Source of the DNA: Stramenopiles sp. TOSAG23-6
Taxonomy: Eukaryota; Sar
Direction: 5' to 3'
Assembly (NCBI GenBank): GCA_900128565.1
Contig: LT635933.1
Span: 1 to 43,173 of the forward strand
Length of the DNA: 43,173 nt
Part shown: positions 6,845 through 42,002 of the stretch, piece after piece
Numbering within the stretch: the first letter of the stretch is position 1
Layout: every line of letters begins with the position of its first letter
Position numbers and translations under genes: made by a program
The notes under the pieces: generated by a model
Told to the model about the DNA's origin: nothing
Database searches by the model: none
What the model saw: the letters and a program-made list of their open reading frames with translations, nothing else

Positions 6845-8292
6845 TTACGCTTGATCTCGTTTTCCAGATATCACTAAACAATTACATAATCTACGTAATG
6901 TATAATATCCCAGTGTACGAATTGCACTACAATGAATTGGAAATATGTATCCATGTATTGTAAAAAATATTTTTTTTTTCCGTACAAAAAATGATTAGGT
7001 ACAAGATTTACTATAAAAAAAAAAAAAATTTGAAATGAATGATGGAAACGTACATCTGTATCTGGACTTCCGATATTCATTGCTTCCAAATCTTCTGTAG
7101 AAAAACAATTTTCAGATCCAATTCGTTTCCTGTTAAAACTTTTGTCAATCGAACTATTATCCAACATTTTTAAATGATTCCAAATTGTATGACTTTGTAA
7201 TGTGAAAAAAATATTTTTTTTTTTTTTTTTGTGGAAAAAAAAAATCGTTAGGTACAACATTTCGTACCAAAAAAAAAAACAAAAAAAATCCGCGATTAAA
7301 ACATACATTTTCTTCTGGTGAAGTATACGGTGCAATATTTGTGAACGTCGGTAAGACGCCATCAGCAAACCCTAAAATTTTGTCTCTATATTGTTGAGCC
7401 TGGTGCGTTGTGTATTTCGTCCGTGTTGGTAAGTCATATGGAACGCATGTGTTGATGAAAAATATGTTTTACATTTCAAATTCGTTAGGTACAGAAATTG
7501 GTACGAAAAAAAGATTAAAAAAATGATGAAAAAAATATTTTTTTTTGTACAATTTGTTAGGTACGAAATTTCGTATGAAAAAAATAAATTCGAAATTGAA
7601 CGTACCGGATGACATAAAAAAGTCTAAAAGCCTTTTATTACCATTTTCACTCATTATACGAATATACTGACCTGCTGCAAAACTATCCATGGTGAGGTGA
7701 AGTATTGTAAAAAAATATTTAAAAAAAAAAAATTGTGAGGTACAACATTTTAAACGAAAAAAAAATTCGAAATTCAATTTTGAAAATGTACTAAAACACG
7801 GCTAATATTGACACCAAGTGATCTATGATTCGAAGCACACTCAAGACAAACAAGGGTACCAAAAGATACGCAACACCATTCCGGATTTTTAGCACCACAG
7901 TCTATACAAGTACTATTACCGGGTAAACTTTTCACCATTTCCACCCAATCTTTTCCTCGATTATATTGAGCTTGTTGTTTTCGACTAGACCTGGGAGTAT
8001 ATTGCTTACTCACTGAAGCTGAAAGCGGCGAAAATGGTTTTTTTTTAGCCGATGCAGGTGTTAGACAAACTTCGAGTTCCTCTTGGGAACTACTTTCACC
8101 AGAGGTAAGTTCCAGGGAGGGATCATCCACGACAATACGCAAGCCATCTTCATTTGGGCTATTTCGTCCAAGTTGTTGCGTCTTATTTACTTTTTTGTAT
8201 GCGGCTAACGTTTCTGGACTAGCTGCAATAGAACTCACAGCCCTTCCTAGACCTTTTTTAGGGGATCCAGCAGTTGTGTTTATTAAATACAT
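6845..8292 (-). CDS. Arf-GAP domain protein, five exons
   Basis: Exons on the minus strand: 8292-7792, 7699-7606, 7446-7307, 7194-7054, 6952-6845, giving 327 residues. The Arf-GAP zinc finger is C129-x2-C132-x16-C149-x2-C152, followed by the arginine finger R157 in NHRSLGVNISRV. After intron 1 the sequence continues as HLTMDSF and GNKRLLDFF, and after intron 2 as TKYTTHQAQQYRD. All of these match the conserved order of Arf-GAP domains, which validates the non-canonical intron boundaries. The family stimulates GTP hydrolysis by Arf GTPases in vesicle traffic. The N-terminal 115 residues are Ser-rich and probably disordered. The C-terminal 80 or so residues are not recognised. It shares a 265-bp divergent promoter with the small lipidated protein. 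Confidence 0.85.
6953..7053 (-). mobile_element. Introner-like intron 4 of Arf-GAP gene
   Basis: GTACGTTTCC ... TTGTACCTAATCA ... ACAATACAT, then GGA TAC ATA. It ends in AT, repeating the AT that ends the upstream exon (ACA GAT). The last exon then reads 35 residues to TAA. Confidence 0.6.
7195..7306 (-). mobile_element. Introner-like intron 3 of Arf-GAP gene
   Basis: GTATGTTTTA ... GTACCTAACGA, T-run/A-run, T-run, CACATTACAA, then AGT CAT. The only phase-0 solution at the family's usual 10-nt tail length ends in AA. The AG within CAAAG would create an early stop. Confidence 0.55.
7447..7605 (-). mobile_element. Compound introner-like intron 2 of Arf-GAP gene
   Basis: 159 nt, the longest of the family. 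It holds two complete cores, one with the perfect palindrome ACGAAATTTCGT plus ACCTAAC and one with CGTACCAATTTCTGTACC plus TAACGA, each followed by a T-rich tail. It ends CATCAACACAT before GCGTTCC. It looks like a tandem duplication or one element inserted in another. Confidence 0.65.
7700..7791 (-). mobile_element. Introner-like intron 1 of Arf-GAP gene
   Basis: On the minus strand: GTACATTTTC ... TTGTACCTCACAA, T-run, ACAATACTT, then CAC CTC ACC ATG GAT. Splicing here restores the conserved RV-x-x-LTMD of the Arf-GAP fold. The intron ends in TT. Confidence 0.65.
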
Positions 8293-9109: not shown

Positions 9110-10107
9110 TTAATTTTCAACAATATCTGGTAACCATAACTTTCCTGGATTAGATTGTCTAGCAACAAGTTCTTTCCAGTGTATATGGGTGTCCTTAATG
9201 ACTTGAAAAGCTTCAAGTGCTGAAAGGGCGCGTTCGTCATGACCAAAACTATTCGGTAATTTCCCGTCAGGAAGTACTCTGAAAAAATATTTTCAAAACA
9301 AAAAAAATCGTTAGGTACAAATTTTCGTATGAAAAAATATAAATTTGAAATTATAGTGAAAACGTACAACTTTATACCATCGGAACCACTCGCGTATACC
9401 CGATACAACTCCATGTTCAATATCGGATACATCATTGATTTTTGATGCAAGTGGATCATCAACACGTATTGCAATTAGTTTCCAATCGAGCTCACCGTCG
9501 TCAATCATGTATTCTAAAAAATATTTTTTTTTTACGAAAAAAAAAATCGTTACGTACGGAATTTCATACAAAATACAAAATAAAAATCATGATGAAAAAC
9601 GTACATGGACAAAACACCCAATGGCTTCACACTATATATTCCACCCATCTCACACTCTTCTGTTCCAATTTCAACAACATCTAAGGGATCATTATCCCCG
9701 AAACATCCTACTATATCGTCTTTTACGTTTGGATCCTCCCACGTTTGAGGTAAACATCCATAGTTCCAGTATATTGGACCATGGTAAAAACGAGGCTCTC
9801 CGTTTTTGACATCTTGTACAATAGGATTAAAACGCGACTTTGTATCGACCTCCATTTTTGCAGTAGTACAACGTGGTATTTCACATAAAAAGTTCACTGT
9901 ACCTTTTTGGTCTGCGGAATAAAGAGGAATATCATGCCACGGAGATACTTGGGCCTTTTCGTTACTGAAATAATCCATGCGAAAACTAGGACTGTGCAAG
10001 ACACCCGTTGTCGATAGCGTAGGTAACGCTACAGCTTTTGAAGATAAAGAACGCCGGCATGCACTTGCAAGTGCACCCGTGTATCGCTGCAGAGTGAATG
10101 CCAACAT
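9110..10107 (-). CDS. Family I inorganic pyrophosphatase, three exons
   Basis: Exons 10107-9605, 9506-9368, 9271-9110, giving 267 residues from the ATG at 10107; an in-frame TTG lies 27 bp upstream. The family signature GDNDPLDVVEIG holds the metal-binding aspartates D138, D140 and D143. DDGELDWK and REWFRWYKVPDGK follow, the latter crossing intron 2. The enzyme hydrolyses pyrophosphate to two phosphates with Mg2+. The first 40 or so residues contain Arg, Ser and Ala but few acids (QRYTGALASACRRSLSSK), suggesting a mitochondrial or other organelle presequence. Homology is continuous only if both introns end without AG, which makes this gene strong evidence for the unusual splice sites. Length fits the eukaryotic family. 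Confidence 0.93.
9272..9367 (-). mobile_element. Introner-like intron 2 of pyrophosphatase gene
   Basis: Minus strand: exon AAA GTT, then GTACGTTTTC ... ATTTGTACCTAACGA ... TTTTTTCAGAGTACTT, then CCT GAC GGG AAA. The TT end repeats the TT of the exon and yields YKVPDGK, the family sequence. Using either AG in CAGAG breaks the frame or loses homology. Confidence 0.75.
9507..9604 (-). mobile_element. Introner-like intron 1 of pyrophosphatase gene
   Basis: Minus strand: exon TCC AT, then GTACGTTTTT ... AATTCCGTACGTAACGA, T-run, CGT, A-run, TATTTTTTAGAATACAT, then G ATT GAC GAC. The AG nine bases upstream would cause a stop within six codons; the AT end gives LSMIDDGELDW, as in the family. Confidence 0.75.
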
Positions 10108-13400: not shown

Positions 13401-15919
13401 CTTCCGTCGAAGCTTGGCGCGCAGTTTAGACCGCGCTAAAGATGCTTCACTTTGTTTTTTTGCAACTATAGCCTCTAATAAAGTCATACCACTGTACCTT
13501 GTAAGTGGCCGGTTTTTCCATCTCGATGATTCTCTTGTTTTGCAATGTGACACATCATTATATATTTCTTTTTTACTTCGTACATTAGTTTGCATTGCTC
13601 GAACAAATGGTGCTGTTGTGGCGCGTTTTGCATTGAAACGTTCCTTAAAATCCTGAAGTCTTTCTTCATTTGCGGATAAATTAATCGATGAAATATCCAC
13701 TGCTGGCGAGCTACTTGTTTTCATATGCTCTGTCTTTGGCCTCGAAATTCGCGAAAATCCAGAAGTATCGAGTTGTCTACTTTCTGGACGAATCATACGA
13801 GATATATTTTTATAAGGTTTTGATTTGTGTATGTTTTCCATAGTTTTGCTACCATGAACCCACTCACCATCACTCCACCTCCCTGCACGTTTATTTAGTG
13901 TTTTGTTTGGCATTGCTTCACTTTTGCCAGAGAATGCGCCAGTGTATCTCGATGCTCCTGCTTGACTAATTAATGATGGAGATCCACCTGAGGCAACTGT
14001 AGCACTTGGCGGAAGACCTGTAGTAGATTCTACACCATACACGCGCAATCTTTCATCATATGATATCCAGTCATCATCTAGACTTGGGTTCCTAAATCGC
14101 AAGGCGAATAAATCTAATGCCCCAATAGGATCAAATCTTTCATTTGGAAAAATAAAATACACCAATTTCATCATTCGGGAAATCACTTCACGTTTATGCC
14201 CAGGTCGAAGCAAATGTTGAGACTCTTTCCCTAATAGCGATGGAAGCATTCGCATGTTTACTTCCAATTTATATAAACCACAATCTGTCGCATCATATGC
14301 TTCTATTTGAATGAACTTCGGACCATCAGAACCAGCTGTGTAGACTCTTCCATCCATACCTACTCCAAACACTGACACGATATGTGTCGTTCCTGCAATG
14401 GAAAAGCAACCTCGCTCAAAGAATACTTTATTTACGGGAACCCCACGAACCCACATACGTCTTCGATTACGTTCCTTCGTTGCATCTTCCATAAACATCA
14501 TTTCGCGGTTTTTCTTTTCTTCAAAATAAGAAAAGTCTAGTAATTGAAGAGAATCTGATTCCTCGCGATATCTATTACGCAGAATTTCACGAAATTCTTT
14601 TGGTGGCATTCCTTTTATAGAACCATAATGATAATCCTTCCGATGCATTGGCATTAAAGGTCGTTCATATATCGTGAAAAAATATTTTTTTTTTTGTTGA
14701 AATTAAAAAAAAATCGTTAGGTACAAAATTTGGTACAATTTGTTTTTTGAAATTGGTGATAAAAACGTACATCTGTTACAAGACAAGATCGTGTCAAAAT
14801 ACCACCGCCAATTTCAAGAGGATCAATCTTTGGTTTTACAATGTTTTTTCTTGGTTCCACAAATTGCATTGAATTGCTCATTTTTACCATCAATTGGCCG
14901 GTAGCACAATCTAAAAATGATTTGTTTTTGGTAATTAATTCAACACTAAGAAGTGGTGCATTATTTTTTCTTATTTTAATTTTTTTATAAGGTACTGGTC
15001 CATCACAAGCTAAGCCCCCAGCAGACATATAACTATCATCGCTACTAGCATCTGAAGCATAACTTTTGCACTCTTCATCACTTTCATGATTAGTTGAAAA
15101 CGTAATTTTATTATCATCTCTTGTTTGATTCGTAGAACAATCAAATTTATGTATTTTCTGAGAATTTATTTCTTGACCCTTTTTTACATTATGTTTTTCT
15201 TTTTGATCCTGTTTTGCATATATCGTTTGATGTACTAAAGCTACAGTTTGGTTTTGAGAAATTGTTGAGCTCTTTTGTTTTTTTAGAGGTTTTCGCACTT
15301 TTTGTCTTTTTTGTTTTTTTATTCTAGAATGTACCCTTGGCGAAGAAACAGCTTTTAAATGAGGCTTTACAATCTTTTGGTGTTTTCGATGTTTTTCAAT
15401 ATCAATACTACTTTCGTTAAATGGTAGGGTTGTAATCACTCCTTTCGGTTTAAGTGTATCTAAAGGAGAAAGTTTTAAAGACTCTAGTCGAATCCGTGGG
15501 GATTTCCCTCCCAAACGCTCAAGAGGCGTCGATAAATCTGAACTATGCTCTATTTGGTTCGTCACATCGACTCTATTATCACGAATATGATCATATTTAT
15601 CACAATATTCAGACAACTGTTTGGCAAAAATTTCTTGTTCGTACAAGTACCTCGCAGCATCTTCCTTTGCTTGGAGAGTATATTTCCTACGATCCATTTC
15701 AGAAAGTAAAGTCCATGCAGTCGATACTAATTTAGCTATTTCTTTTTTTCCTACATTTGGATTTTCCTCACAAATACGTGCTCTGTTAGAATGAACAAAG
15801 AATAAATAAGGAGTCCATTTAGCCCGAGGTGGTCGGGGTGGCTTCTGGGGTATTGAAACTGGTGGGAGCTTCCTTGACTGTTTCTTTTGAAACTCCTGAA
15901 GTTTTCTAGCTGCTAACAT
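10416..15919 (-). CDS. Large HMG-box / EF-hand protein, two exons
   Basis: Exon 1 is 15919-14771 (383 codons) and exon 2 is 14666-10416, together 1799 residues. Residues about 28-98 form an HMG box (PPRAKWTPYLFFVHSNRARI ... EIAKLVSTAWTLLSEMDRRKY), known to bind and bend DNA. A basic, low-complexity linker follows. Exon 2 starts ERPLMPMHRKDYHYGS and holds a globular region around WVRGVPVNKVFFERGCF, a strongly basic helical stretch (RAKLRRKRERRIRRIKRKQ), a Ser/Asp-rich acidic stretch, and a canonical EF-hand loop DQDKDGIINWTE at about residue 1067. An unrecognised C-terminal globular part with a Lys/Glu coiled coil ends the protein. The frame passes cleanly through the intron, so I treat it as one protein. 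If the intron were not removed, it would be two genes. Function beyond likely chromatin binding and Ca2+ sensing is unknown. Confidence 0.75.
14667..14770 (-). mobile_element. Introner-like intron of HMG-box gene
   Basis: Minus strand: exon GTA ACA GAT, then GTACGTTTTT ... TTTTGTACCTAACGA, T-run, AATTTCAAC, A-run, TATTTTTTCACGATATAT, then GAA CGA CCT. It ends in AT, repeating the AT ending the exon. Phase 0. Confidence 0.65.
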
Positions 15920-16405: not shown

Positions 16406-17292
16406 ATGAGTGATGATGGTTGGGAAGATGGTGCTAGTTGTGATAGTCAGGAAGAAAGTATAAAAGGTGCAGTTGGAGACGAGTTCGTTGATCCCTTCAC
16501 TGACCAGAACGTGCATGTATCAAACAAAGTAGAGTGCGAAGATGATGGTTGGGAAGAGGGCGCTGGTAACATTGCGGCGGCAAAGAGGGAAAATGAAAAG
16601 TCAAAACGTAAGGCATTAAAGAAGGCATTTCATTCTGTTGAAGTCCATAAAGCCCATATTATATGTCTTACTGCTCATCTTGTACGTGTGAATGAGGTAT
16701 GTGATGATGTCATGGTTCAAGCTGCGGTACTTTCAACTCTTCCAACGGAAATACGTCCCAAGCTATCAAATTCGTTGATGGAAAATTCTGATGATAAGGT
16801 CACATCAATATTATCCCTGCGTGTTATGTTTGAATGGTTTACAACTTTCTTTAAACACGTTGAAGTCCCAGGTCGACCACTAGCAATAGGTAATGCATGT
16901 TGGGGAGCTGATGCAAGAGCACGTTTGCTTCATGTTATTGCAAATAGACGAGGTTATCCGGAAGAATTGCTTCAAATATGGGTATCTCTTTGTCGATCGT
17001 TAAGGTTTCCTGCTCGTTACGTCCGTAGATTTGATCCCTTGCACTGGCGGAAAAAAGAGTTGAAGAAAAAGAGAGGCAAACGAAAGCGAGAAACAAAAAA
17101 AGCTCATGATAATTTATCATCGGCATTGAGTACTGGAATGATTTCTTCTTTAGGACATAGTGCTGGTAAAATGATGAAAAAGCGTCAAAGTAGTGAATGG
17201 CATCTTCAAAGAATACGTGAAGAAGGTATGTTTTTTTCTACAAAATGTGATACCTACTTTTTTTAGTATGGAATTTTTTTTTTTTTTTAGTA

Positions 17293-17330
<38 letters not shown>

Positions 17331-18811
17331 AAAAAAAAATATATATATATTTTTCCACAATGTAGGTCGGAGGATTGTAGGCGATGGAGTTCGATTAGAC
17401 CAAATGTCACTACCGACTGATTGTTGGTCAGAAGTATGGTGTTCTATTAAACATGATATAAATGAAACACTAATCTCTAACCCTACTCCTGAGACAAACA
17501 CGAAATATGATACAAATAGTTCATCCTCAACATCTCCAAATATTTTGGATATTGATTCCGTACCAAATTCTATAACAAATATTATACCTGAAAAATGGTA
17601 TTGTGTAGATCCTCTACGAGGGAAACTAGAAGATGTAAAAAGTCCCGAACGATTATGTACGTGTCCAAAATTGAATTGTGTACTTTATTTTTCTTTTTTG
17701 TACCAAATTTTTGTACTTACAATTTTTTTTTTTTTTTTTTTACGAAAAAAAAAAAAAAAAAATATTTTTTCACCATATATTGTCAATGAGTCATGGAGCT
17801 TCATATACATATTCGCGACAGGATAAAAATATGAAAAATTATACTTCTTCGGATTCTATTAAGTGTAAAGGGAAGCATATGCCATTAGTATATGTAGCTG
17901 CTATTGAGAAAAATAATATTCTTTTTGATGTTACACGGAGATATGTACGTTTTCAATTTCGAATTTCAAATTTATTTTTTTTTCATACGAAATTTTGTAC
18001 CTAACGATTTTTTTTTTTCGGTAAAAAAAAAAAAATATTTTCACAATATATGCTCATAACTGGTCAATGACAGAAAAAGAGAGAGTGCCTACAAGTAGTT
18101 CTACAACACTAGCTGGAAGATCACTAAAGCGAATGGGTGATGATGTATCTTGGTCGACATTTGATGAGCTCATTCTTCAATTAAATGTTTATTATGAAAA
18201 AAATTTGAATGAAAAACGTTTGAATGAAAAAATATCACGAAATATTGATACTACAGAAGATTTGACATCTATGAAAAAGAATATAAAAATATCACGAAAT
18301 GTTGCTGAGAAAAATGAATTATATTTTGCCATGAATGATGAACCAATGCCTACGAATTTATCATCTTTCAAAGCTTCTAAAAAATACGTGCTTGAAAGAT
18401 TTCTTCGAAAAGATGAAGTTATTTGGAACCTTTCGAACCCTAACCCTAATAAACGGAATAATACAAAAAATAAAGTAAATGAAAAAAGGAACAAAAACAA
18501 CTCAATGAAAACTACAAAAAACATGTATGTTTTATTTTTTTTTTTACAAAAAAATCGAATTTTTTTTTCGTACGAAAATTTGTACCTAACGAATTTTTTT
18601 TTTTTCGGTAAAAAAAAAAAAAATTTCACAATACATGATCAAAGAAACAAAATCGATTACAGGTATAAATTTTAAATCTAATGATTTTGGTACGGAAAGT
18701 TATACCATGCTAAAGAGAGCTTGTCAAGAAAATGATTGTTTTAAAGATATTGATGTTGGAGATGCAGCAAATATTGGATCAGAGATATTAGGTAATTGTA
18801 TCATTTCATAA
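16406..18811 (+). CDS. XPC/Rad4 DNA repair protein, C-terminus missing
   Basis: Exons 16406-17225, 17366-17656, 17781-17944, 18052-18524, 18637-18811, giving 640 residues. XPC/Rad4 recognises helix-distorting DNA damage to start nucleotide excision repair. The Rad4 transglutaminase-like fold is seen in SLRFPARYVRRFDPL, CWSEVW, KWYCVDPLRGK and LVYVAAI...DVTRRYAHNW. The beta-hairpin domain 1 is clear in EPMPTNLSSFKASKKYVLERFLRKDEVI. BHD2 and BHD3, which hold the mismatch-binding hairpins, are absent. After BHD1 come an Asn/Lys-rich stretch, one more intron, about 57 unrecognised residues and a stop next to a degenerate T/A-rich sequence. The gene is either truncated, or its last exons were lost or lie beyond an undetected intron. 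The N-terminus has two DDGWE-D/E-GA motifs. Confidence 0.8.
17226..17365 (+). mobile_element. Introner-like intron 1 of XPC gene (GT-AG)
   Basis: GTATGTTTTT ... degenerate cores (TGATACCTAC, AGTATGGAA), very long T-run, A-run, ATATATATTTTTCCACAATGTAG, then GT CGG AGG. It is the only member ending in AG, and the upstream exon also ends in AG (GAA GAA G). This fits a duplicated target dinucleotide. Confidence 0.65.
17657..17780 (+). mobile_element. Introner-like intron 2 of XPC gene
   Basis: Exon CGA TTA T, then GTACGTGTCC ... TTGTACTTACAA, T-run, ACG, A-run, TATTTTTTCACCATATAT, then TG TCA ATG AGT. It ends in AT, the same as the exon end. It restores the frame leading to the DVTRRY exon. Confidence 0.65.
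17945..18051 (+). mobile_element. Introner-like intron 3 of XPC gene
   Basis: Exon CGG AGA TAT, then GTACGTTTTC ... ACGAAATTTTGTACC, TAACGA, T-run, CGGT, A-run, TATTTTCACAATATAT, then GCT CAT AAC TGG. The junction rebuilds DVTRRYA, an invariant stretch in Rad4 proteins. The first downstream AG is 22 nt inside the exon and would shift the frame. Confidence 0.8.
18525..18636 (+). mobile_element. Introner-like intron 4 of XPC gene
   Basis: Exon AAA AAC AT, then GTATGTTTTA ... TCGTACGAAAATTTGTACC, TAACGA, T-run, CGGT, A-run, TTTCACAATACAT, then G ATC AAA. It ends in AT, repeating the exon end. Confidence 0.65.

Positions 18812-21575: not shown

Positions 21576-21614
<39 letters not shown>
21560..21614. 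other. Asymmetric spacer at the palindrome centre
   Basis: Fifty-five bases that do not pair between the arms: nine T, GGGGTGGGG, then thirty-seven T. It is followed by A20, which pairs with T20 of the left arm. The low complexity suggests a fold-back loop or a poorly called homopolymer. It lies where the 5' end of an introner-like intron in the orphan gene would be expected. Confidence 0.9.
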
Positions 21615-21634
<20 letters not shown>

Positions 21635-21705
21635 CGTTTTTAGGTTTTCGTACTACATTTTGTAACTAACTTTTTTTTTTTTTTTGAAATTTCTTCACAA
21701 CACAT

Positions 21706-22496
21706 CCATTAACACGAAATAAGTTTCTATCGAGTCATCGACAACGGCAAAAACAACAAAAATTAAAAATATATGTTTTATTTTTTTTCATACGAAAATT
21801 TGTACCTAACAATTTTTTTTCATACGAAAATTTGTACCTAACAATTTTTTTTTTTTTGGTAAATTTTGAAATATTTTTCAAAAATACATGTGGCCTGTCA
21901 AAGTTTCAAAATTGATGAATAAAAAAGAATTACAAAATCAAAAAGATGTAAAAAAACAAAAAATGCTACATATCGCAAATGCCGTAGCTGAGACTTTAGT
22001 TTGTCATGACAGAAATTCAGATCACTCAAATTCAAAAACCCTAACCCTAACAAATTCTGAAATGTTTGAAAAAAAAGAAAACCCTAACCCTACTCAAGAA
22101 AACCCTAACCCTACTCAAGAAAAGTGTACACAAAATTCATCAAGTATACAATTAACTACAAAATTAAGTACAGACAAAAAATTAAATCGGTGCAAAGAAG
22201 ATGTTGCAAATGACATCATATCAGTTTTAGCAATGCCACGTGGCAAAAGGGGTAAGGGATTACATGGCAAAGATGTTGATGAAATGAATTTTCAGTTATT
22301 ATCCACTATGCCACGTGTCATTGCTCGCGCAGCGTTACGTGAATTTGATTTATGTGGAGTACGAAAAAACACGAAAAATAGTGAAAACACGAAAAATAGT
22401 GAGGATTCTGTTTCAAATGTTTCAATTCGGCGTCTAAATGTAATTATTAAAAAATGGAACAGAGGAGATGGTCGTGTTGCTGATATTCAACAGTAA
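21706..22496 (+). CDS. Right-arm copy: orphan Lys/Asn-rich protein
   Basis: Identical to the gene at 20678-21468. Exons are 21706-21770 and 21890-22496, with the introner at 21771-21889 and the cut introner at 21615-21705. The two copies face each other head to head across the spacer, and neither has a start codon. Confidence 0.55.
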
Positions 22497-22780
22497 TGTT
22501 GATTCAAAAATAAAAATTCAAAAATAAAAATATTCTAGCGCTAGCTTGGAAATTCAATTCACATTTTTTTTTTAATTCGTTAGGTAATGTGGACGGTAAT
22601 GTGTTCACATATATATCAATATTGCCACGTTTTTTTTTATAAATCGTTTCACAAAGTTTCAGATGAATTACGATTTGAGATTTCAAAAGATGAATATAAT
22701 ATGAAGTAGTTAGGCTGTAATTTAATATAGCAATTCGATAATCTTCCCAAAGCAGATAGAATTGATGTCAATCAAGCCAA

Positions 22781-24124
22781 TCAATGCGGAGCTTCCGGGC
22801 CGTATAATGCATCATACAAGGGTCCATTCTGTGAAACAATCATCAATGGGGTATATCCGGTCCATGGTCCACTTGTCACAGCCTGATTGACATCAGCACC
22901 AGCAGCAATTAGTTGTTGAGCTACTCCAACATGACCTTTCAATAAAGCAATCATCAATAGGGTATCTCCATCTTCATCAGTCGTGTTGACATCAATTTTA
23001 TCTGCTTTGAGAAGTTCTTCAACTACTTTTTCATGACCATTCTTTGAAGCAATAAGCAATGGGGTATCTCCTTCTTCATCACCCGTGTTGACATCAGCAC
23101 CATTATCAAGAAGTAGTCGAACCACTGCTGCATGACCTTCATGTGAAGCAAGATACAATGGGGTAATGTTGTCTTCAACAGCCTGATTGACATTAGCACC
23201 ATGATCAATAAGTTGTTCAACTACTCTAACATGACCCTTCAGTGAAGCAATAATCAATGGGGTATAACCGTACATATCACCATTGGTCTGATTGACATCA
23301 GCACCAACACCGGTAAGCTTTGCAACAACTTCTGCATGACCCTCGCATGATGCAATATACAATGGAGTTTCGAAATTTCCGTCAAGTTCATCAATATCAG
23401 CGCCAATCGCCAGCAAAACGTCAATCATTGTTGTATTATTAGTTCTTACAGCTTTATGAAGTGGATGAGTACCCTCTTGTGCTTTACTATGGTCTGCATT
23501 TGAATTAGCATACCACTTAAAAACGTTTGTTTTGTCTTTAACAACAACAAATGGAGGTGTTAACTCCAAGCTATGCTCTGTGACATATTCAGTAAAGATT
23601 GTGTTCTTTTCCTCCACTGACAGTTGTTTCCATTTCTCAGCTTTTGCTTTCTTCTCCAAGTGTTTTGACATTTCAACAGCTAGTGCTTCATCAGCAGGAT
23701 TGCGAGCATTTATTGAATTTTCCAAAGCTCGTATAAGTTGTCCACCAGATTTTGGGAGAAAATCCAAGACAGTTTCCAATGGTTGTGAAGGATTCACACC
23801 TGAAGCAACTTCAACAACGTTATTCCTAGCTTGACTCGACCAAGGATTATGCGAAAACTGAAGGATTCGATGCGCAAGTTGGGTAAAAATTGTGTCATAT
23901 TCTGGGAAATCCCGTAAGACGCGTGCAAAAGCAAAGCGTCGACGAGCCATTAAAACATGGTAATTCGTGTTCCTGTCCTCAAATTGTAGCGCAAGGCTTT
24001 CCCATCTTGATAGAACCTTTTGTTCCACTGAAACGTGTCCCAAATTACGACCTTCCAAGGAAGGAGTCATTGCAGCGTGTGACACGTCTGATGCAATCAA
24101 GCTTAATAGTATAAACCACTTCAT
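22781..24124 (-). CDS. Right-arm copy: secreted ankyrin-repeat protein
   Basis: Identical translation to 19050-20393 (447 residues, signal peptide plus six to seven ankyrin repeats). Start codon at 24124. Confidence 0.85.
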   Translation of the reverse strand: MKWFILLSLIASDVSHAAMTPSLEGRNLGHVSVEQKVLSRWESLALQFEDRNTNYHVLMARRRFAFARVLRDFPEYDTIFTQLAHRILQFSHNPWSSQARNNVVEVASGVNPSQPLETVLDFLPKSGGQLIRALENSINARNPADEALAVEMSKHLEKKAKAEKWKQLSVEEKNTIFTEYVTEHSLELTPPFVVVKDKTNVFKWYANSNADHSKAQEGTHPLHKAVRTNNTTMIDVLLAIGADIDELDGNFETPLYIASCEGHAEVVAKLTGVGADVNQTNGDMYGYTPLIIASLKGHVRVVEQLIDHGANVNQAVEDNITPLYLASHEGHAAVVRLLLDNGADVNTGDEEGDTPLLIASKNGHEKVVEELLKADKIDVNTTDEDGDTLLMIALLKGHVGVAQQLIAAGADVNQAVTSGPWTGYTPLMIVSQNGPLYDALYGPEAPH

Positions 24125-24362
24125 TGTTTTTGAAATCTTTCGGAGTTTGTTACCCGTTATCTATATCTTGATTACGCTAGCAGGCGAGCTGTTTGCGCCA
24201 AAGTACAGTGCAGCCCTGGATATTTGCACCAAGGTAATAGAATAGAATTTTATTACCTACGTAGTACGTAGGCCTTGGTTGCACTGACTCTCTCTCGGGA
24301 GGATAATTTTAAAGGTCGTTTAAAAAAAACAAAAAAATATTTTTTTTTTTTAATTTTTTTTT

Positions 24363-25843
24363 TTATGAAATGATACAATTACCTAATATCTCTGATCCAA
24401 TATTTGCTGCATCTCCAACATCAATATCTTTAAAACAATCATTTTCTTGACAAGCTCTCTTTAGCATGGTATAACTTTCCGTACCAAAATCATTAGATTT
24501 AAAATTTATACCTGTAATCGATTTTGTTTCTTTGATCATGTATTGTGAAATTTTTTTTTTTTTTACCGAAAAAAAAAAAATTCGTTAGGTACAAATTTTC
24601 GTACGAAAAAAAAATTCGATTTTTTTGTAAAAAAAAAAATAAAACATACATGTTTTTTGTAGTTTTCATTGAGTTGTTTTTGTTCCTTTTTTCATTTACT
24701 TTATTTTTTGTATTATTCCGTTTATTAGGGTTAGGGTTCGAAAGGTTCCAAATAACTTCATCTTTTCGAAGAAATCTTTCAAGCACGTATTTTTTAGAAG
24801 CTTTGAAAGATGATAAATTCGTAGGCATTGGTTCATCATTCATGGCAAAATATAATTCATTTTTCTCAGCAACATTTCGTGATATTTTTATATTCTTTTT
24901 CATAGATGTCAAATCTTCTGTAGTATCAATATTTCGTGATATTTTTTCATTCAAACGTTTTTCATTCAAATTTTTTTCATAATAAACATTTAATTGAAGA
25001 ATGAGCTCATCAAATGTCGACCAAGATACATCATCACCCATTCGCTTTAGTGATCTTCCAGCTAGTGTTGTAGAACTACTTGTAGGCACTCTCTCTTTTT
25101 CTGTCATTGACCAGTTATGAGCATATATTGTGAAAATATTTTTTTTTTTTTACCGAAAAAAAAAAATCGTTAGGTACAAAATTTCGTATGAAAAAAAAAT
25201 AAATTTGAAATTCGAAATTGAAAACGTACATATCTCCGTGTAACATCAAAAAGAATATTATTTTTCTCAATAGCAGCTACATATACTAATGGCATATGCT
25301 TCCCTTTACACTTAATAGAATCCGAAGAAGTATAATTTTTCATATTTTTATCCTGTCGCGAATATGTATATGAAGCTCCATGACTCATTGACAATATATG
25401 GTGAAAAAATATTTTTTTTTTTTTTTTTTCGTAAAAAAAAAAAAAAAAAAATTGTAAGTACAAAAATTTGGTACAAAAAAGAAAAATAAAGTACACAATT
25501 CAATTTTGGACACGTACATAATCGTTCGGGACTTTTTACATCTTCTAGTTTCCCTCGTAGAGGATCTACACAATACCATTTTTCAGGTATAATATTTGTT
25601 ATAGAATTTGGTACGGAATCAATATCCAAAATATTTGGAGATGTTGAGGATGAACTATTTGTATCATATTTCGTGTTTGTCTCAGGAGTAGGGTTAGAGA
25701 TTAGTGTTTCATTTATATCATGTTTAATAGAACACCATACTTCTGACCAACAATCAGTCGGTAGTGACATTTGGTCTAATCGAACTCCATCGCCTACAAT
25801 CCTCCGACCTACATTGTGGAAAAATATATATATATTTTTTTTT

Positions 25844-25881
<38 letters not shown>

Positions 25882-26768
25882 TACTAAAAAAAAAAAAAAA
25901 TTCCATACTAAAAAAAGTAGGTATCACATTTTGTAGAAAAAAACATACCTTCTTCACGTATTCTTTGAAGATGCCATTCACTACTTTGACGCTTTTTCAT
26001 CATTTTACCAGCACTATGTCCTAAAGAAGAAATCATTCCAGTACTCAATGCCGATGATAAATTATCATGAGCTTTTTTTGTTTCTCGCTTTCGTTTGCCT
26101 CTCTTTTTCTTCAACTCTTTTTTCCGCCAGTGCAAGGGATCAAATCTACGGACGTAACGAGCAGGAAACCTTAACGATCGACAAAGAGATACCCATATTT
26201 GAAGCAATTCTTCCGGATAACCTCGTCTATTTGCAATAACATGAAGCAAACGTGCTCTTGCATCAGCTCCCCAACATGCATTACCTATTGCTAGTGGTCG
26301 ACCTGGGACTTCAACGTGTTTAAAGAAAGTTGTAAACCATTCAAACATAACACGCAGGGATAATATTGATGTGACCTTATCATCAGAATTTTCCATCAAC
26401 GAATTTGATAGCTTGGGACGTATTTCCGTTGGAAGAGTTGAAAGTACCGCAGCTTGAACCATGACATCATCACATACCTCATTCACACGTACAAGATGAG
26501 CAGTAAGACATATAATATGGGCTTTATGGACTTCAACAGAATGAAATGCCTTCTTTAATGCCTTACGTTTTGACTTTTCATTTTCCCTCTTTGCCGCCGC
26601 AATGTTACCAGCGCCCTCTTCCCAACCATCATCTTCGCACTCTACTTTGTTTGATACATGCACGTTCTGGTCAGTGAAGGGATCAACGAACTCGTCTCCA
26701 ACTGCACCTTTTATACTTTCTTCCTGACTATCACAACTAGCACCATCTTCCCAACCATCATCACTCAT
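24363..26768 (-). CDS. Right-arm copy: XPC/Rad4, C-terminus missing
   Basis: Mirror of 16406-18811. Introns fall at 25809-25948, 25394-25517, 25123-25229 and 24538-24649. The same loss of BHD2/BHD3 is present. Confidence 0.8.
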
Positions 26769-27254
26769 GATAAAAGAACACCTTATATGCAAGAAAACTC
26801 AATAAACATGTTTCATTGAACCTTTCATATTCATTTCCACGGACCTTTCTATGGTTTGCAACCTTCTAGTAAAATAAAAATATTTAATATTAATATTCCA
26901 AGTCAAAAATGACCGGCGGCCAAAAATGATTTTTTTTTTGTCGAACCAAAAAACCAAATCGATATTATAGCTAATTAATAGTAGCTACGTAATATTGTAA
27001 CTGTCAATCAGCGCGACTTAGAATTCACTGTAGAACTACACAAGTGTGGGACAATAGGTACTAGTATTATCAATAATACTCCCATAGTAGGCTTGTACGG
27101 TACATAGTCTAATTCCTGAGTGTTAGTTATCATTGAAATTATAGAAAAAGTTATGTTTCAAACAAATATATAATATGTTGACATCAGTATTGAAAAATGC
27201 TCTTCAATAGGATAGGTATTTTTTTAGTTTCTTTCTTCTAGGTTCATACAAGCA

Positions 27255-30200
27255 ATGTTAGCAGCTAGAAAACTTCAGGAGTTTCAAAAGAAACAGTCAA
27301 GGAAGCTCCCACCAGTTTCAATACCCCAGAAGCCACCCCGACCACCTCGGGCTAAATGGACTCCTTATTTATTCTTTGTTCATTCTAACAGAGCACGTAT
27401 TTGTGAGGAAAATCCAAATGTAGGAAAAAAAGAAATAGCTAAATTAGTATCGACTGCATGGACTTTACTTTCTGAAATGGATCGTAGGAAATATACTCTC
27501 CAAGCAAAGGAAGATGCTGCGAGGTACTTGTACGAACAAGAAATTTTTGCCAAACAGTTGTCTGAATATTGTGATAAATATGATCATATTCGTGATAATA
27601 GAGTCGATGTGACGAACCAAATAGAGCATAGTTCAGATTTATCGACGCCTCTTGAGCGTTTGGGAGGGAAATCCCCACGGATTCGACTAGAGTCTTTAAA
27701 ACTTTCTCCTTTAGATACACTTAAACCGAAAGGAGTGATTACAACCCTACCATTTAACGAAAGTAGTATTGATATTGAAAAACATCGAAAACACCAAAAG
27801 ATTGTAAAGCCTCATTTAAAAGCTGTTTCTTCGCCAAGGGTACATTCTAGAATAAAAAAACAAAAAAGACAAAAAGTGCGAAAACCTCTAAAAAAACAAA
27901 AGAGCTCAACAATTTCTCAAAACCAAACTGTAGCTTTAGTACATCAAACGATATATGCAAAACAGGATCAAAAAGAAAAACATAATGTAAAAAAGGGTCA
28001 AGAAATAAATTCTCAGAAAATACATAAATTTGATTGTTCTACGAATCAAACAAGAGATGATAATAAAATTACGTTTTCAACTAATCATGAAAGTGATGAA
28101 GAGTGCAAAAGTTATGCTTCAGATGCTAGTAGCGATGATAGTTATATGTCTGCTGGGGGCTTAGCTTGTGATGGACCAGTACCTTATAAAAAAATTAAAA
28201 TAAGAAAAAATAATGCACCACTTCTTAGTGTTGAATTAATTACCAAAAACAAATCATTTTTAGATTGTGCTACCGGCCAATTGATGGTAAAAATGAGCAA
28301 TTCAATGCAATTTGTGGAACCAAGAAAAAACATTGTAAAACCAAAGATTGATCCTCTTGAAATTGGCGGTGGTATTTTGACACGATCTTGTCTTGTAACA
28401 GATGTACGTTTTTATCACCAATTTCAAAAAACAAATTGTACCAAATTTTGTACCTAACGATTTTTTTTTAATTTCAACAAAAAAAAAAATATTTTTTCAC
28501 GATATATGAACGACCTTTAATGCCAATGCATCGGAAGGATTATCATTATGGTTCTATAAAAGGAATGCCACCAAAAGAATTTCGTGAAATTCTGCGTAAT
28601 AGATATCGCGAGGAATCAGATTCTCTTCAATTACTAGACTTTTCTTATTTTGAAGAAAAGAAAAACCGCGAAATGATGTTTATGGAAGATGCAACGAAGG
28701 AACGTAATCGAAGACGTATGTGGGTTCGTGGGGTTCCCGTAAATAAAGTATTCTTTGAGCGAGGTTGCTTTTCCATTGCAGGAACGACACATATCGTGTC
28801 AGTGTTTGGAGTAGGTATGGATGGAAGAGTCTACACAGCTGGTTCTGATGGTCCGAAGTTCATTCAAATAGAAGCATATGATGCGACAGATTGTGGTTTA
28901 TATAAATTGGAAGTAAACATGCGAATGCTTCCATCGCTATTAGGGAAAGAGTCTCAACATTTGCTTCGACCTGGGCATAAACGTGAAGTGATTTCCCGAA
29001 TGATGAAATTGGTGTATTTTATTTTTCCAAATGAAAGATTTGATCCTATTGGGGCATTAGATTTATTCGCCTTGCGATTTAGGAACCCAAGTCTAGATGA
29101 TGACTGGATATCATATGATGAAAGATTGCGCGTGTATGGTGTAGAATCTACTACAGGTCTTCCGCCAAGTGCTACAGTTGCCTCAGGTGGATCTCCATCA
29201 TTAATTAGTCAAGCAGGAGCATCGAGATACACTGGCGCATTCTCTGGCAAAAGTGAAGCAATGCCAAACAAAACACTAAATAAACGTGCAGGGAGGTGGA
29301 GTGATGGTGAGTGGGTTCATGGTAGCAAAACTATGGAAAACATACACAAATCAAAACCTTATAAAAATATATCTCGTATGATTCGTCCAGAAAGTAGACA
29401 ACTCGATACTTCTGGATTTTCGCGAATTTCGAGGCCAAAGACAGAGCATATGAAAACAAGTAGCTCGCCAGCAGTGGATATTTCATCGATTAATTTATCC
29501 GCAAATGAAGAAAGACTTCAGGATTTTAAGGAACGTTTCAATGCAAAACGCGCCACAACAGCACCATTTGTTCGAGCAATGCAAACTAATGTACGAAGTA
29601 AAAAAGAAATATATAATGATGTGTCACATTGCAAAACAAGAGAATCATCGAGATGGAAAAACCGGCCACTTACAAGGTACAGTGGTATGACTTTATTAGA
29701 GGCTATAGTTGCAAAAAAACAAAGTGAAGCATCTTTAGCGCGGTCTAAACTGCGCGCCAAGCTTCGACGGAAGAGAGAGAGACGCATTCGTCGTATAAAA
29801 CGGAAACAATATCGCGTTGAAAAGGAATCAAAAATTGCTATCAAAAAGCTAAAGGAAAGGGGGAATTATGCAAAAGAATTTCAAGATCGGATAAAATTAA
29901 AACGCCAAGCTGAAAAAGACGGCAAACCATGGCCACCAAAAGGTCAAAAGACTATAGAAGAAAAATTTCGTCTTTTACAAGAAAAGAAAAATCGTCGACA
30001 TGAAAAAAGGAAAAAGGAGAAGTTGCGTGGAATTCAAGCATGGAGGCGATTGAAGTCAGGTTTTTCAAGTAAGGAAACGACAAACGAAAATAATCACAAT
30101 GAAGAATCATCAATTCGAGATAATGATTACGAATATGTCAATTCAAAGGATGTACCAGTGGGAATAGGATGGGAACTTGCACCTTTGCAACCTAAATTTG

Positions 30201-32758
30201 AGAATGATAGTGATTCTTCTTCATCCGAAAATTCAAGTTGCTTATCCGACTCGGATATTTCAAGTTCAAGCTCATCAATGGGTTCATTGAGTTTTGATTC
30301 ACAGACTACTGAATGTTCTGGGAGTGAAGATTCTGATGGCGAAAGACCTTTACCAACAAACATGGCTATACAGTTGCATCATATGGTAAATTTTTTTAAT
30401 GGTGGTGGAGTTTATCCCTTGAAAGGTAAGAAAGAAGAGGAAGATATATTTAAAGAGTTAGAGTTTCGATTAGAATTAAAAGCACCTAAAGAATGTGGCA
30501 GATTAGACTTGGTTGTACAAGAAACCGGTAAACAACTACGAATTCAACAAATATTTGAAGCTCTAGATCAAGATAAGGATGGCATTATTAACTGGACAGA
30601 ATGGAATGCATTAATTCCTCGAAAGCGGTTAGGAATAAGTCCAGGTATTAAAGCATTAGGGGTTGAAGAAACAATTGCAAATGCTCGTTTAAAAGCTAAA
30701 AAACTCAAGAAAGAAATAGATGACTATAACAGAGAAGTTTTATCTAATACCACATTTGATTTGACTGATGAATGGTTAAAGAAACAACATGAAATGCAAC
30801 AGGACCTTTGCGTGAAAGATAAAGTAAGTGAACCTGTAACAATAGAAAGTACTTTGATGAAAACAGAAATAGACAATATTGATGAAGCTAAAGAGAAAAC
30901 AAAAGACATTAATGTCCTTGAGAAATCATCTGATAGTGATTACATCATTCAAAGTTCAAGTACCAATGTAGAGCAGAAAGAATCCAAAGAAGTACAAGGC
31001 ACATGTAAATGTAGACCGATGTGTATGGCACCAAGTGGACTCAAATTGAGCAAAGTAAGCACACCAAAACAAGACAACGATGGAATTTTAAATGATGCTC
31101 CGAGATGGAAAGCAGTTCTACCTTGGGAGATGAGTAAAGTTGATCGACTATATCAGAGATCTAATGCAAAGCGCAATCGTGAGTTGATATACAGAATAAC
31201 ACGTAAAATGACACATTGGCATGATATATACATAATATATGTGTTCAAATATATTCGGTATGGAAAATGTTTCTATGTTCGTGTATATAACACAAAGAAT
31301 TCTGAGCAGTACAACTGTGCAATTTCATTCCGTTTTGCTGAAGAAACATTTCATTTACCCAAAGACGATGATTCAAAATATAGTGACACACAATGGTTAC
31401 TTTCAGTGGCACGCATGTTAGCTAAAAAGGTAACACTTGAGCAAAACTTTTCAGTATCTCTTGGATCGTTTATGAGAATTTGTATTGGAACAAAACGTGG
31501 TTTACCTGGTGCACCACTTCGATCAGGAGATTCAGCTATTCTTTCATATGTAGATTCACCACCGCCACGTTATAATAAAAGCACATGGAAACCCTGCAAA
31601 AGATTACGAAACATTTTACTGGCTGATCGTTTTGAAAAGTTGTCTGGATCCCCTTTACGAAATAATAAGGTAGCTCATGGCATTGGTAAAATATTTACAT
31701 ATCATAAAATGAGAGTGATTTATGATGTATTTTCAATGCCAGCACAAAACAACATGTATAGTATCGATGAAGCAAGTAATACTGCAAACACTAAAATTGC
31801 TGATTTTGAAAAATCATTGATTTTAATACGGTTATACATGCCCCGTTCATGTAAAGTGTTCGAATTCACAGTCGATCTCAATGAAATTCGCGTGCATCTC
31901 CTCGATGATACACGACTTGCATTTAATCATCCTTTGTCCTTTTTGTTTCCTACAGAAAATAAAAAAGACAGAAAATTATTTGAAGACTTCATGGATCGAC
32001 TTTTGGGGCGTGAATTATCGCTATGTACACTTGGCAATGAAAACTTTGAACGAGGTGACGGTTTAATTCAAATGCCAAAGAGGATTCTTAAATTTGTGTA
32101 TCGTGTACCTATAGTGAAGAATTCGAAAGATTTGACTGATCAAGATTTAGCAGATATGTATACCGCAATGGAAGAAAATATTAGTTCATCAGAAGAAGAA
32201 ACTATAGATGTCGATGGTTTTTTTGATATGGATGAAATAATGGGTGGTGATAATGAAGCAGCTAATATTTTAAAAAATGCTCCTATCGCTGAGCGTCCAG
32301 ATTCTGCATTACGCGAGGAGGAACGAAGGAAAAAAATAGATGAAGAGAAAAGAATCAAAAAAGAAAAAAAACGTGCTGAATTTGAAGAGCGCAGGAAAAA
32401 GAAACTCCAGGAAAGACGAATACAAATGGGACGTTGTCAAGATGATGAAGATTCGGATGATGACGAAGAAGAGGCAACAAGTCAATTGTTGTGTGTTACT
32501 GTTGACATTAGAGGCACCGAAATTAGCATTAAAGGATATGACCCAAGACCTAATAAACGTATTTTCTATGATACAATATTACCCGAAATGTACAAAGAAG
32601 AATTATTTCGTGAAATAAATACGTGTAAAGCTACACCAACATCAAGGGATAAAATTATTATTGATTATATTCAAGATACATTGGTGTTAGAGCAGCAAGG
32701 GAAGGCAGATGAATATTTATGGAAAGTAAAGGAAAAAGGAGAAGGCATTCTTGATTAA
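27255..32758 (+). CDS. Right-arm copy: HMG-box / EF-hand protein
   Basis: Mirror of 10416-15919. Exons 27255-28403 and 28508-32758, with the introner at 28404-28507; 1799 residues. Confidence 0.75.
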
Positions 32759-33066
32759 GTGAGAATAATATAATAAAGAATAAAGTCAATTTTTTTAATG
32801 TAATGATATTGTACTTTTGTACTAATAATTAACTAGAAAATTATCGCTTGTTGTAGCAATCTCATCATTCATCGGCTTACGTAGGGTTAGGGCTCTAGTA
32901 TTCAACGATTTTTTCGATTTTTTTCGTGTTTTTTTAGGAAAATGACACGTGGGCACGTGTGCTGCTGATACGACTTATTTATAGTATTACAACGACGACG
33001 GATTCGGAGTTTACCTACAAAATATAGCCGAATAGAGCATTGAATTCAGTAATATTACATTGTTTC

Positions 33067-34064
33067 ATGTTGGCATTCACTCTGCAGCGATACACGGGTG
33101 CACTTGCAAGTGCATGCCGGCGTTCTTTATCTTCAAAAGCTGTAGCGTTACCTACGCTATCGACAACGGGTGTCTTGCACAGTCCTAGTTTTCGCATGGA
33201 TTATTTCAGTAACGAAAAGGCCCAAGTATCTCCGTGGCATGATATTCCTCTTTATTCCGCAGACCAAAAAGGTACAGTGAACTTTTTATGTGAAATACCA
33301 CGTTGTACTACTGCAAAAATGGAGGTCGATACAAAGTCGCGTTTTAATCCTATTGTACAAGATGTCAAAAACGGAGAGCCTCGTTTTTACCATGGTCCAA
33401 TATACTGGAACTATGGATGTTTACCTCAAACGTGGGAGGATCCAAACGTAAAAGACGATATAGTAGGATGTTTCGGGGATAATGATCCCTTAGATGTTGT
33501 TGAAATTGGAACAGAAGAGTGTGAGATGGGTGGAATATATAGTGTGAAGCCATTGGGTGTTTTGTCCATGTACGTTTTTCATCATGATTTTTATTTTGTA
33601 TTTTGTATGAAATTCCGTACGTAACGATTTTTTTTTTCGTAAAAAAAAAATATTTTTTAGAATACATGATTGACGACGGTGAGCTCGATTGGAAACTAAT
33701 TGCAATACGTGTTGATGATCCACTTGCATCAAAAATCAATGATGTATCCGATATTGAACATGGAGTTGTATCGGGTATACGCGAGTGGTTCCGATGGTAT
33801 AAAGTTGTACGTTTTCACTATAATTTCAAATTTATATTTTTTCATACGAAAATTTGTACCTAACGATTTTTTTTGTTTTGAAAATATTTTTTCAGAGTAC
33901 TTCCTGACGGGAAATTACCGAATAGTTTTGGTCATGACGAACGCGCCCTTTCAGCACTTGAAGCTTTTCAAGTCATTAAGGACACCCATATACACTGGAA
34001 AGAACTTGTTGCTAGACAATCTAATCCAGGAAAGTTATGGTTACCAGATATTGTTGAAAATTAA
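33067..34064 (+). CDS. Right-arm copy: inorganic pyrophosphatase
   Basis: Mirror of 9110-10107. Exons 33067-33569, 33668-33806 and 33903-34064; introners at 33570-33667 and 33807-33902. The paired G-box is at 32945-32960. Confidence 0.93.
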
Positions 34065-34268
34065 TTTTGTTATTTCAATGTTGTGTACAAAGAATATCTT
34101 TTTTGTGATGGATTTTGGAACGATTCCATTGTGTGTGAACTATTAACTTTTTTTATAAAATAATATATGATATAAATAGTATGTTTGCAAAAGGGTAAAT
34201 AATAAATCCGACTATACNTGCATATANTTTTTTTACGNTTTGTNATGATTGATTTGTCATGGTTAATT

Positions 34269-34616
34269 TCATATTGACACGTAGTTTTCATTCCACTTAG
34301 AGCCAGATTCAATCACATCTACAGCTTTTTTCCTCTCTATTTCTGGTACACGTGGGTTGTTGAGAGTTACTTCTAAGTCTTCCATATATTCTTCCAGGGT
34401 AATTGAATCTTTATTTCGATTTGAAAAATCTATTTGAGAAGTTGAAAGACCTCCTATTAACTGTAGTCGTCGAAATAAATAATCTTTCGTAACTTCACCT
34501 GAAGGAGAAGACTCTTTGAACCTTGCATAACTTTGTTCAAGACTTTGAATTTGTGATTTGCTTAAAGAAGTGGAAGCATTGTCATGCCTACAACATGTTG
34601 AGCTTTGAGAACCCAT
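34269..34616 (-). CDS. Right-arm copy: small lipidation-type protein
   Basis: Mirror of 8558-8905, 115 residues beginning MGSQSSTCC. The N bases after the stop recur at about 34218-34244. Confidence 0.65.
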   Translation of the reverse strand: MGSQSSTCCRHDNASTSLSKSQIQSLEQSYARFKESSPSGEVTKDYLFRRLQLIGGLSTSQIDFSNRNKDSITLEEYMEDLEVTLNNPRVPEIERKKAVDVIESGSKWNENYVSI

Positions 34617-34881
34617 TCTACACTTTTAATAAGCGTAATTTTGAATATCAGTGTTGTTTTATATTTAATAAAATTGTGTTTACTTTGTAGAGTTTGACAA
34701 CAGTAGTAAAATAAAACAGCGGGGAGAGAAAATCTCCGATGGTGATATTTTGTCGTAACCGCAAACAAACGCTATCAAGTTTAGGTACTACTGGATCAAC
34801 AAAAAGATATACCTGTAGTAACATATATATTCCTGTTTTGTCTGCTACTTTTTTTTATTAACAAAGCATTCAATCATAGTC

Positions 34882-36329: not shown

Positions 36330-36663
36330 AGATTTTGGTAGGAGATGCAAAAAATGTTGTTTATCATCAAATATTTATCTGAATGAATAAATAATAAAAA
36401 TTAATAATATTATAACTTTTTTTTTTTACTGTATCACCGCGTAGAGGGCAAAACGTTAACTTCTAACAGGGGGCGGAAGCCCACTGGTTTATATATAATC
36501 TAGAAACGCAAAATTAAGTTCAAAATTTTGCAATATCCAGATAAAAAGTGAGTGTAGAATGAAACCCAATACATGTTGAATTGTATAGCTTTGGGGTATT
36601 TATTATTATATAAAATATAGAAAAAAATGAGAATCTTTGATGCTTGTTTGGTATTGCTTTGGA

Positions 36664-37887: not shown

Positions 37888-38243
37888 GGTCTATAAAATC
37901 AAAGATTTAATTGCATTAAGTCAAGGCAATTTCTGATTTTTTGCAATCTAATTGTTGGTTCCTATATTTACCTATTTCGAGGACGAAAGTTCGATATATT
38001 TTTTATGCAAAAACTGAAAAACTCGTGCCGTGTGATCGTGATGACATTGTCGATCAGTCAAAATTGGAAGTGTCGAAGTAAGTCGAAGTTACGTGGGTTA
38101 GCCTACGTAGTATATACTAGAACTTAAATCCTGTCTGCACTCTGCGCAGCAACAGCGACAGCAAGTAGTTTGTGTGGCTACTGATAGTTGTATTATAATC
38201 ACCACCTTAATATATAATAGTTGGATTGTGTCTGTTTTTGTTG

Positions 38244-38891: not shown

Positions 38892-38983
38892 AACGAAATA
38901 AATGACAAAGATGAAAAAGTTCAGCACTATTAGAATTTCTAATTTAAATAAATTATGATAAAATGAAAATGTATTATAAACAT

Positions 38984-41961: not shown

Positions 41962-42002
41962 TTCAGTTCATTTTAATACTATTGTATTCATTATTTTATT
42001 TT

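Follow-up and report, generated by a model that had tools for sequence, protein, structure and literature searches.

Introners have been described as introns that occur in many similar copies across genes, with duplicated boundaries and with splice signals derived partly from the target (PMC9860276), those of Chrysochromulina being reported to carry their 5' splice site, to co-opt the 3' one and to show 4-bp duplications (PMC9860276). Here we analyse an introner-like family first noticed in a 43,173-nucleotide contig of Stramenopiles sp. TOSAG23-6 (GenBank LT635933.1, assembly GCA_900128565.1; contig C391 of the draft genome), which in its full length is called the window below and in which the XPC/Rad4 gene and several others are interrupted by copies of the family. 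Few signals in gene expression are as constant as the 3' AG of introns, whose last G is believed to pair with the intron's first G during the second step of splicing. On the evidence of genomic sequence, we consider it probable that the family is an introner which the host spliceosome removes at a 3' site other than AG, mostly YAU.

Results

A large family of similar introns in unrelated genes

The introns share one design, consisting of a GTAYGTTTT start, a CGTACGAAATTTTGTACCTAACRA core, a T-run and a CAMAATAYAT end. A 21-base core (TTTGTACCTAACGATTTTTTT), searched with at most two mismatches, had 1,218 matches (634 + 584) in the draft genome of 8,027,113 bases and 408 contigs, while the reversed pattern had none, which bears out the common design that a preliminary description of the window had reported. 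The copies were then surveyed in about 263 kb (about 197 kb, a further 45 kb of other contigs, and one arm of the window) with a profile trained on 97 copies, giving 109 distinct full-length copies. Because the 21-mer is present in 45 of these 109, the genome can be put roughly at 2,950 copies, inverted contig duplicates included. Identity between nearest neighbours has a median of 84% and reaches 95%, and the similar introns lie in unrelated genes, as introners do. The exact core patterns had no match in viral or genome contigs elsewhere, in a search from which records near the organism's own genome may have been excluded.

Only one arm of the window entered the survey, since its two halves are one sequence written twice: positions 1-21586 and their inverted copy are 99.87% identical, without gaps, over 21,586 bases, and even the N bases are mirrored. 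The preliminary description had put about 14 introns in each arm; the arms do not represent two samples, and one arm holds 11 full-length copies by profile, to which a pattern search added a further XPC/Rad4 intron, at 17226..17365 (Table 1). Three family introns of the XPC/Rad4 gene were recovered in the stretch 17657-18636 that the description had marked.

The signals of the family follow the order of U2-type introns, namely 5' splice site, branch sequence, U-rich tract and end. In a set of copies numbering 137 before edge losses, the GTAYGT start is conserved at G1 (89%), T2 (94%), G5 (89%) and T6 (98%), and the preceding exon bases are A in 62% at -2 and T in 84% at -1. A CCTAAC-like branch sequence (at most one mismatch) was found in 89 of 91 copies supported by the reading frame (see below), with a median of 40 nt from the branch A to the intron end (range 32-65, n = 89). 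The 3' consensus is YAT, the last T being present in 92% and the preceding A in 83% of this set. The family thus agrees with U2-type introns in its 5' splice site and branch sequence and departs from them at the 3' end. U12-type introns have an ATATCC or GTATCC 5' site and a branch close to the 3' end. Neither the GTAYGTTTT start nor the distance from branch to end in the family fits the AT-AC introns of that type.

Some stretches contain two cores (9466-9637 of locus L015, reverse strand, and about 7440-7610 and 21295-21400 of the window). These would be cases in which one family copy inserted into another or arose inside it by duplication.

The inferred intron end is fixed after the T-run and is rarely AG

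To locate the 3' end, the open frame upstream of each copy was compared with that downstream, which was clear on both sides in 98 of the 109 copies, the other 11 being dropped. When the segment removed began at the GT and closed with the 10th base beyond the T-run, the frames joined in 91 of the 98, and a first pass with hand-made patterns had placed 98 of 111 in frame. This restoration is not a by-product of intron length, because lengths are spread over all three classes modulo 3 (55/43/38); the phases are even as well (34/27/30). The 91 frame-supported copies end in AT (71), GT (6), TT (6), AG (4), AC (2), AA (1) and CA (1), so that 87 of them end in something other than AG. Hence the proposal of an introner-like family with a mostly non-AG 3' end was upheld. 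The further proposal that position alone defines this end held only in part: the end is fixed relative to the T-run, but it also follows the YAT consensus, and its last two bases copy the target site in part.

Splicing at ordinary AG sites near the inferred end was weighed on the same copies. A frame-compatible AG lies within +15 in 17 of the 91 copies, and four of the 91 end in AG. However, the rule of taking the first AG that lies 10 nt or more beyond the branch hexamer restored the frame in just 30 of 98 copies, which is the chance level, as the preliminary description had anticipated in rejecting AG ends. Moreover, in 69 of 91 copies the stretch that runs from the branch site to +15, with the end counted in, contains no compatible AG, 89 of 91 have none between the branch site and the end, and use of AG sites would cost residues matched by homology, such as EIRRA in ClpB. 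We therefore regard ordinary AG splicing as highly improbable. Between 32 and 2 nt before the end, AG occurs 14 times and GA 71 times, a scarcity that fits AG avoidance but also the consensus itself.

A second sample was obtained from 10 stretches picked by split kinase domains, with the boundaries set by eye. Eleven introns were resolved in six genes (L039, L040, L042, L043, L045 and L046), 10 ending in AT and one in AG; as for the remainder, L044 and L047 gave no resolved boundaries, L041 was obscured by N and L038 had no interruption. A blind scan for breaks in open reading frames (ORFs) beyond the family yielded 567 pairs, 161 with a family match nearby, and was too noisy to use; among the nine strong pairs listed, several resemble homopolymer frameshifts, N or a duplicated stretch, and the others resisted classification.

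Protein homology continues across the joints

Alignments of seven spliced proteins covered 13 joints, and nine of these were gapless (a slash marks the joint): VLSM/IDDGELDW and YKV/PDGK in inorganic pyrophosphatase, both spanned by 14 of 15 aligned homologues, the last of the 15, P0001, continuing into the intron; GRD/MEIRR and GM/VPHSL in ClpB; HARQC/SARGG, the second joint of a PhzF-like protein; VD/RSLSNRL, the first of MCM5; RNYT/SACDLWS in a CDPK; HR/DLKPSN in a MAPK-like kinase; and DMLNH/, the first of SETD3. A further MCM5 joint, KAAPIS/VYTSGKGSSAAGLTAS, showed no gap against the relative P0122 when inspected by eye. Spliced products gave Pfam matches to Rad4, ArfGap, pyrophosphatase and AAA, the Rad4 match (residues 349-446) crossing two joints, that of the intron at 17945..18051 and the preceding one, and the ArfGap match crossing one. 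The protein motifs that the preliminary description had expected to be restored are therefore indeed continuous in the pyrophosphatase, and domain matches run across the joints in the other two genes that it had named.

Three MCM5 relatives, P0121-P0123 (46-59% identity), read through the DRS intron site, and P0122 and P0123 read through the second site too, where P0121 diverges.

A two-base repeat and the register of splicing

The exon base at -2 equals the intron base at -2 in a fraction of 0.71, against 0.56 expected from shuffles (z 5.6), and the -1 position gave z 2.7, the other 18 offsets lying between -2.0 and 3.3. Where the exon ends in GT the intron ends in GT in 5 of 11 copies, and where it ends in TT the intron ends in TT in 5 of 11. 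This repeat of a dinucleotide suggests a 2-bp target duplication. At one intron on the reverse strand of L020, at 6315, the exon that follows starts with GTACGTTTG, nearly identical to the intron start, a direct repeat longer than the usual 2 bp.

As a consequence of the repeat, GT...AT and AT...AC boundaries give the same mRNA in most copies; AT, for instance, stands at both the exon and the intron end in 58 of 108. The removed unit might accordingly be shifted by two bases (NT/GTAYG...AY), making the introns mostly AT-AC, and such ends together with a CCTAAC-like branch resemble U12-type introns. The choice of register alters the protein in 29 of the 91 copies, and it was judged where the residue is conserved, on four of these 29 and on one kinase outside the set. 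In all five the GT...NT register, in contrast to NT...AY, keeps the conserved residue: the Arg of HRD in a kinase on contig C329 (exon GT, intron AT), the His of DMLNH in the SETD3-like gene on C26 (AT, AG), a Val at the second ClpB intron, on C24 (GT, AT), the Asp-Arg of MCM5 (TC, AG) and the Val of VYTSGK in MCM5 (GT, AT). Since two of the five end in AG, these cases say more about the register than about an AT end. Conservation of the bases also points to GT, those at +1 and +2 being more constant than the exon A and T at -2 and -1, and the distance of 32-65 nt from the branch A to the end counts against the shifted reading as well. An AT-AC register is thus unlikely.

Orientation and folding

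With respect to the gene, 95 copies are in sense, one is antisense and 12 are unclear (n = 108). Excision from DNA, as of the internal eliminated sequences of ciliates, would account for segments that are short, AT-rich, bounded by a 2-bp repeat and located within coding sequence. But such excision would have no reason to respect the gene strand, and ciliate eliminated sequences are indifferent to gene orientation; nor would it explain why a 5' splice site, a branch sequence and a U-rich signal follow one another in the correct order. We give excision from DNA very little credence.

A structure-defined, non-spliceosomal intron of the euglenid or hemistasiid diplonemid type, in which paired ends set the cut, could find some support in the short inverted ends of the family (about 6 bp, ATGTAT/ATACAT) and in the 26 of 89 introns in which at least three base pairs join the first 20 nt to the last 20, a count made without a shuffled control. 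Folding of whole introns, however, gave a mean z of -0.87, with 16 of 89 below -2, so that the stable end pairing of those introns is not a property of the family, and the strong consensus at the 5' splice site and branch likewise speaks against it. This explanation is very unlikely.

Two structural readings were not borne out. The T/A hairpin of the preliminary description, meant to fold out the gap between branch point and splice site, was seen in some copies only, those of XPC, and is not a general mechanism of the family, the segments from branch to end having a mean fold z of -0.64, with 11 of 87 below -2. The GTAC palindrome, which precedes the branch sequence, showed no clear covariation as an RNA stem over 100 cores, one pair having a z of 2.9 and the other six lying between -1.0 and 1.3.

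Probable ordinary introns and spliceosomal components

A few ordinary GTAAGT...AG introns probably coexist in the same genome, judging by eye from three loci. L017 at 8181 has GTAAGT, ACTAAC and CAG, and L023 at 6250 (reverse strand) has GTAAGT and CAG with no clear ACTAAC, both on contigs that also carry family copies. L050 (contig C380) contains an HSP60-like gene whose GTAAGT...AG introns, about 350-570 nt long, look ordinary; this 1.9-kb piece has no family copy and may come from the same organism or from another in the bin. With ordinary AG introns probably present, AG recognition seems not to have been lost. The scan for GTRAGT...YAG in which these introns came up gave six candidates, while three control sets of hexamers gave 3, 1 and 10, so that it did not rise above controls. 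On C376 an RNA recognition motif gene shows a likeness to the U2AF large subunit, its score of 96.9 bits being far below the curated cut-off of 310.3.

Features of the window and of the sampled genome

The positions of the introns and of other features are collected in Table 1.

Table 1. Family introns and other features, in window coordinates unless a locus is named; 'frame-supported' means that removal joins the reading frames
Feature	Position	Strand	Intron ends	Remarks
Family intron	181..275	+	...GT	frame-supported
Family intron	361..451	+	GTGTGT...ATACAT	frame-supported
Possible ordinary intron, same gene as the two above	710..808	+	GT...AG	in frame, by eye
Family intron, ArfGAP gene region	6953..7053	-	GTACGT...ATACAT	by profile; not scored frame-supported
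Family intron, ArfGAP gene region	7195..7306	-	...AA	frame-supported
Family intron, ArfGAP gene	7700..7791	-	...TT	frame-supported; ArfGap domain match spans joint
Family intron, inorganic pyrophosphatase	9272..9367	-	...TT	YKV/PDGK; gapless, same 14 homologues and two PDB chains as next row
Family intron, inorganic pyrophosphatase	9507..9604	-		VLSM/IDDGELDW; gapless, 14 homologues spanning joint and two PDB chains
Family intron, large unnamed ORF	14667..14770	-	GTACGT...ATATAT	frame-supported
Family intron, XPC/Rad4	17226..17365	+	...AG (CACAATGTAG)	same end position; in frame; found by pattern
Family intron, XPC/Rad4	17657..17780	+	GTACGT...ATATAT	frame-supported
Family intron, XPC/Rad4	17945..18051	+	GTACGT...ATATAT	DVTRRY/AHNW; frame-supported
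Family intron, XPC/Rad4	18525..18636	+	GTATGT...ATACAT	frame-supported
Second arm, inverted copy of 1-21586	21587..43173			position x corresponds to 43174-x; every intron present twice
Telomere-like dimers	10282, 18438, 21061, 21082, 21125			30 further places in fetched loci
Apparent frameshift sites in long ORFs	L015 2792-2830; L016 5617-5721; L035 near 1750	reverse (L015, L016)		

The inverted repeat of the window, with its mirrored N, is probably an artefact of assembly or amplification. Contig C2 also appears self-inverted, and C13/C14 and C275/C276 resemble near duplicates. In long ORFs, what look like frameshifts at runs of A, together with an N base, suggest sequence errors in the assembly. 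The best named relatives of the MCM5 are stramenopiles (Aphanomyces, Phytophthora, Pythium and Ochromonas), and the pyrophosphatase matches are taxonomically mixed. Telomere-like dimers (CCCTAACCCTA/TAGGGTTAGGG) are dispersed, some lying within exons as NPNPN; 35 were counted in 274 kb, a few duplicates included, against 0, 0, 0 and 1 for four control motifs, and runs of five such repeats were absent from the genome.

Discussion

We propose that a non-autonomous mobile element, an introner whose copies would have moved as DNA, creates spliceosomal introns in this genome. The element would bring a strong 5' splice site (GTAYGT), a U-rich tract, CAMAATAY and, some 40 nt before its end, the yeast-like branch GTACCTAAC, mostly without a 3' AG of its own. 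On insertion a target dinucleotide (AT, in some cases GT or TT) would be duplicated, and its copy would form the final two bases of the intron. In the host spliceosome step 1 would proceed as usual; step 2, tolerating a U in the last position, would join the exons at a constant point, 2 nt past CAMAAUAY and some 10 nt past the U-run, mostly at YAU rather than YAG.

Several observations weigh against this proposal. The copies that trained the profile had consensus-like ends, and AG ends may be under-counted. Seven of the 98 copies miss the frame; four were accounted for by eye, one because its end was set wrongly, two because they are nested or partial and the fourth, the second pyrophosphatase intron (9272..9367), because it was scored out of frame automatically when a longer competing ORF was chosen, and three have no explanation (L037 at 3224, L022 at 2081 and L027 at 8163). 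At four of the 13 protein joints the alignment shows a gap of 1-2 residues, either at the joint itself or next to it, in every case in a weakly conserved stretch: the first PhzF-like joint (GNGKY/NFYSRYF), the second of MCM5 (AGET/VTWTP) and the second and third of SETD3. P0001, a pyrophosphatase 98% identical to ours, reads directly into the intron, which implies that it derives from DNA or is unspliced. As for the duplication, offset +3 (z 3.3) exceeds the -1 position in the same test, no empty target site was found, and 25 of the 29 introns in which the register matters have no judgeable residue. Finally, RNA models for U1 and U2 had no match and U6 reached 19 bits, below the cut-off, a weak negative in a draft genome, and a U2AF35 query found nothing, again a weak negative in a draft and one obtained without a positive control.

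How far the consequences extend is evenly balanced in our judgement. The spliceosome may routinely finish step 2 at a site other than AG (YAU, or whichever dinucleotide came from the target), selected by its position after CAMAAUAY, with an introner of about 3,000 copies making up most of the introns and the AG rule broken in most interrupted genes, ordinary AG introns still being spliced. Since the family alters only the 3' AG, its near-identical copies with AT, GT, TT and AG variants would constitute a natural test of 3' site choice. The family also suggests how a mobile element can turn into an intron with an AG neither supplied by the element nor encountered at its target, and introns could then be gained at a wider range of sites. 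In practice, annotating this organism with gene finders that require AG would leave many of its genes broken.

A literature search over titles and the openings of abstracts, with most subscription papers and all bioRxiv preprints outside its scope, found no such family described. Introns without a 3' AG, including an AU end, have been reported from Fritillaria borealis and linked there to divergent U2AF subunits (PMC13326754). The introns of that species are described as diverse, whereas here GT is kept and it is the 3' end that departs, within one repeat family. Hemistasiid diplonemid introns resemble the present ones in lacking GT-AG, and a possible origin akin to miniature inverted-repeat transposable elements was suggested for them; in that account they have C- and G-rich pairing ends and few branch motifs (PMC12621601), unlike the family described here, which is AT-rich, with mostly unpaired ends and a strong branch motif. 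The introners of Amoebophrya, likewise a protist, are similarly abundant, with non-canonical ends and short direct repeats at their boundaries (Farhat et al. 2021, PMC7789003). They are characterised there by no clear terminal signature, by inverted repeats of 8-20 nt able to form hairpins and by direct repeats of 3-5 nt, whereas the present introns form one conserved family with an ordinary 5' site and branch sequence and no general hairpin. The likeness to the introners of Gozashti et al. (2022, PMC9860276) lies in the similar copies across genes, the boundary duplication and the partly recruited splice signals; those introners are described as using GY/AG sites, with some GC and GA 5' sites, while here a 2-bp duplication supplies AT, GT or TT and mostly no AG.
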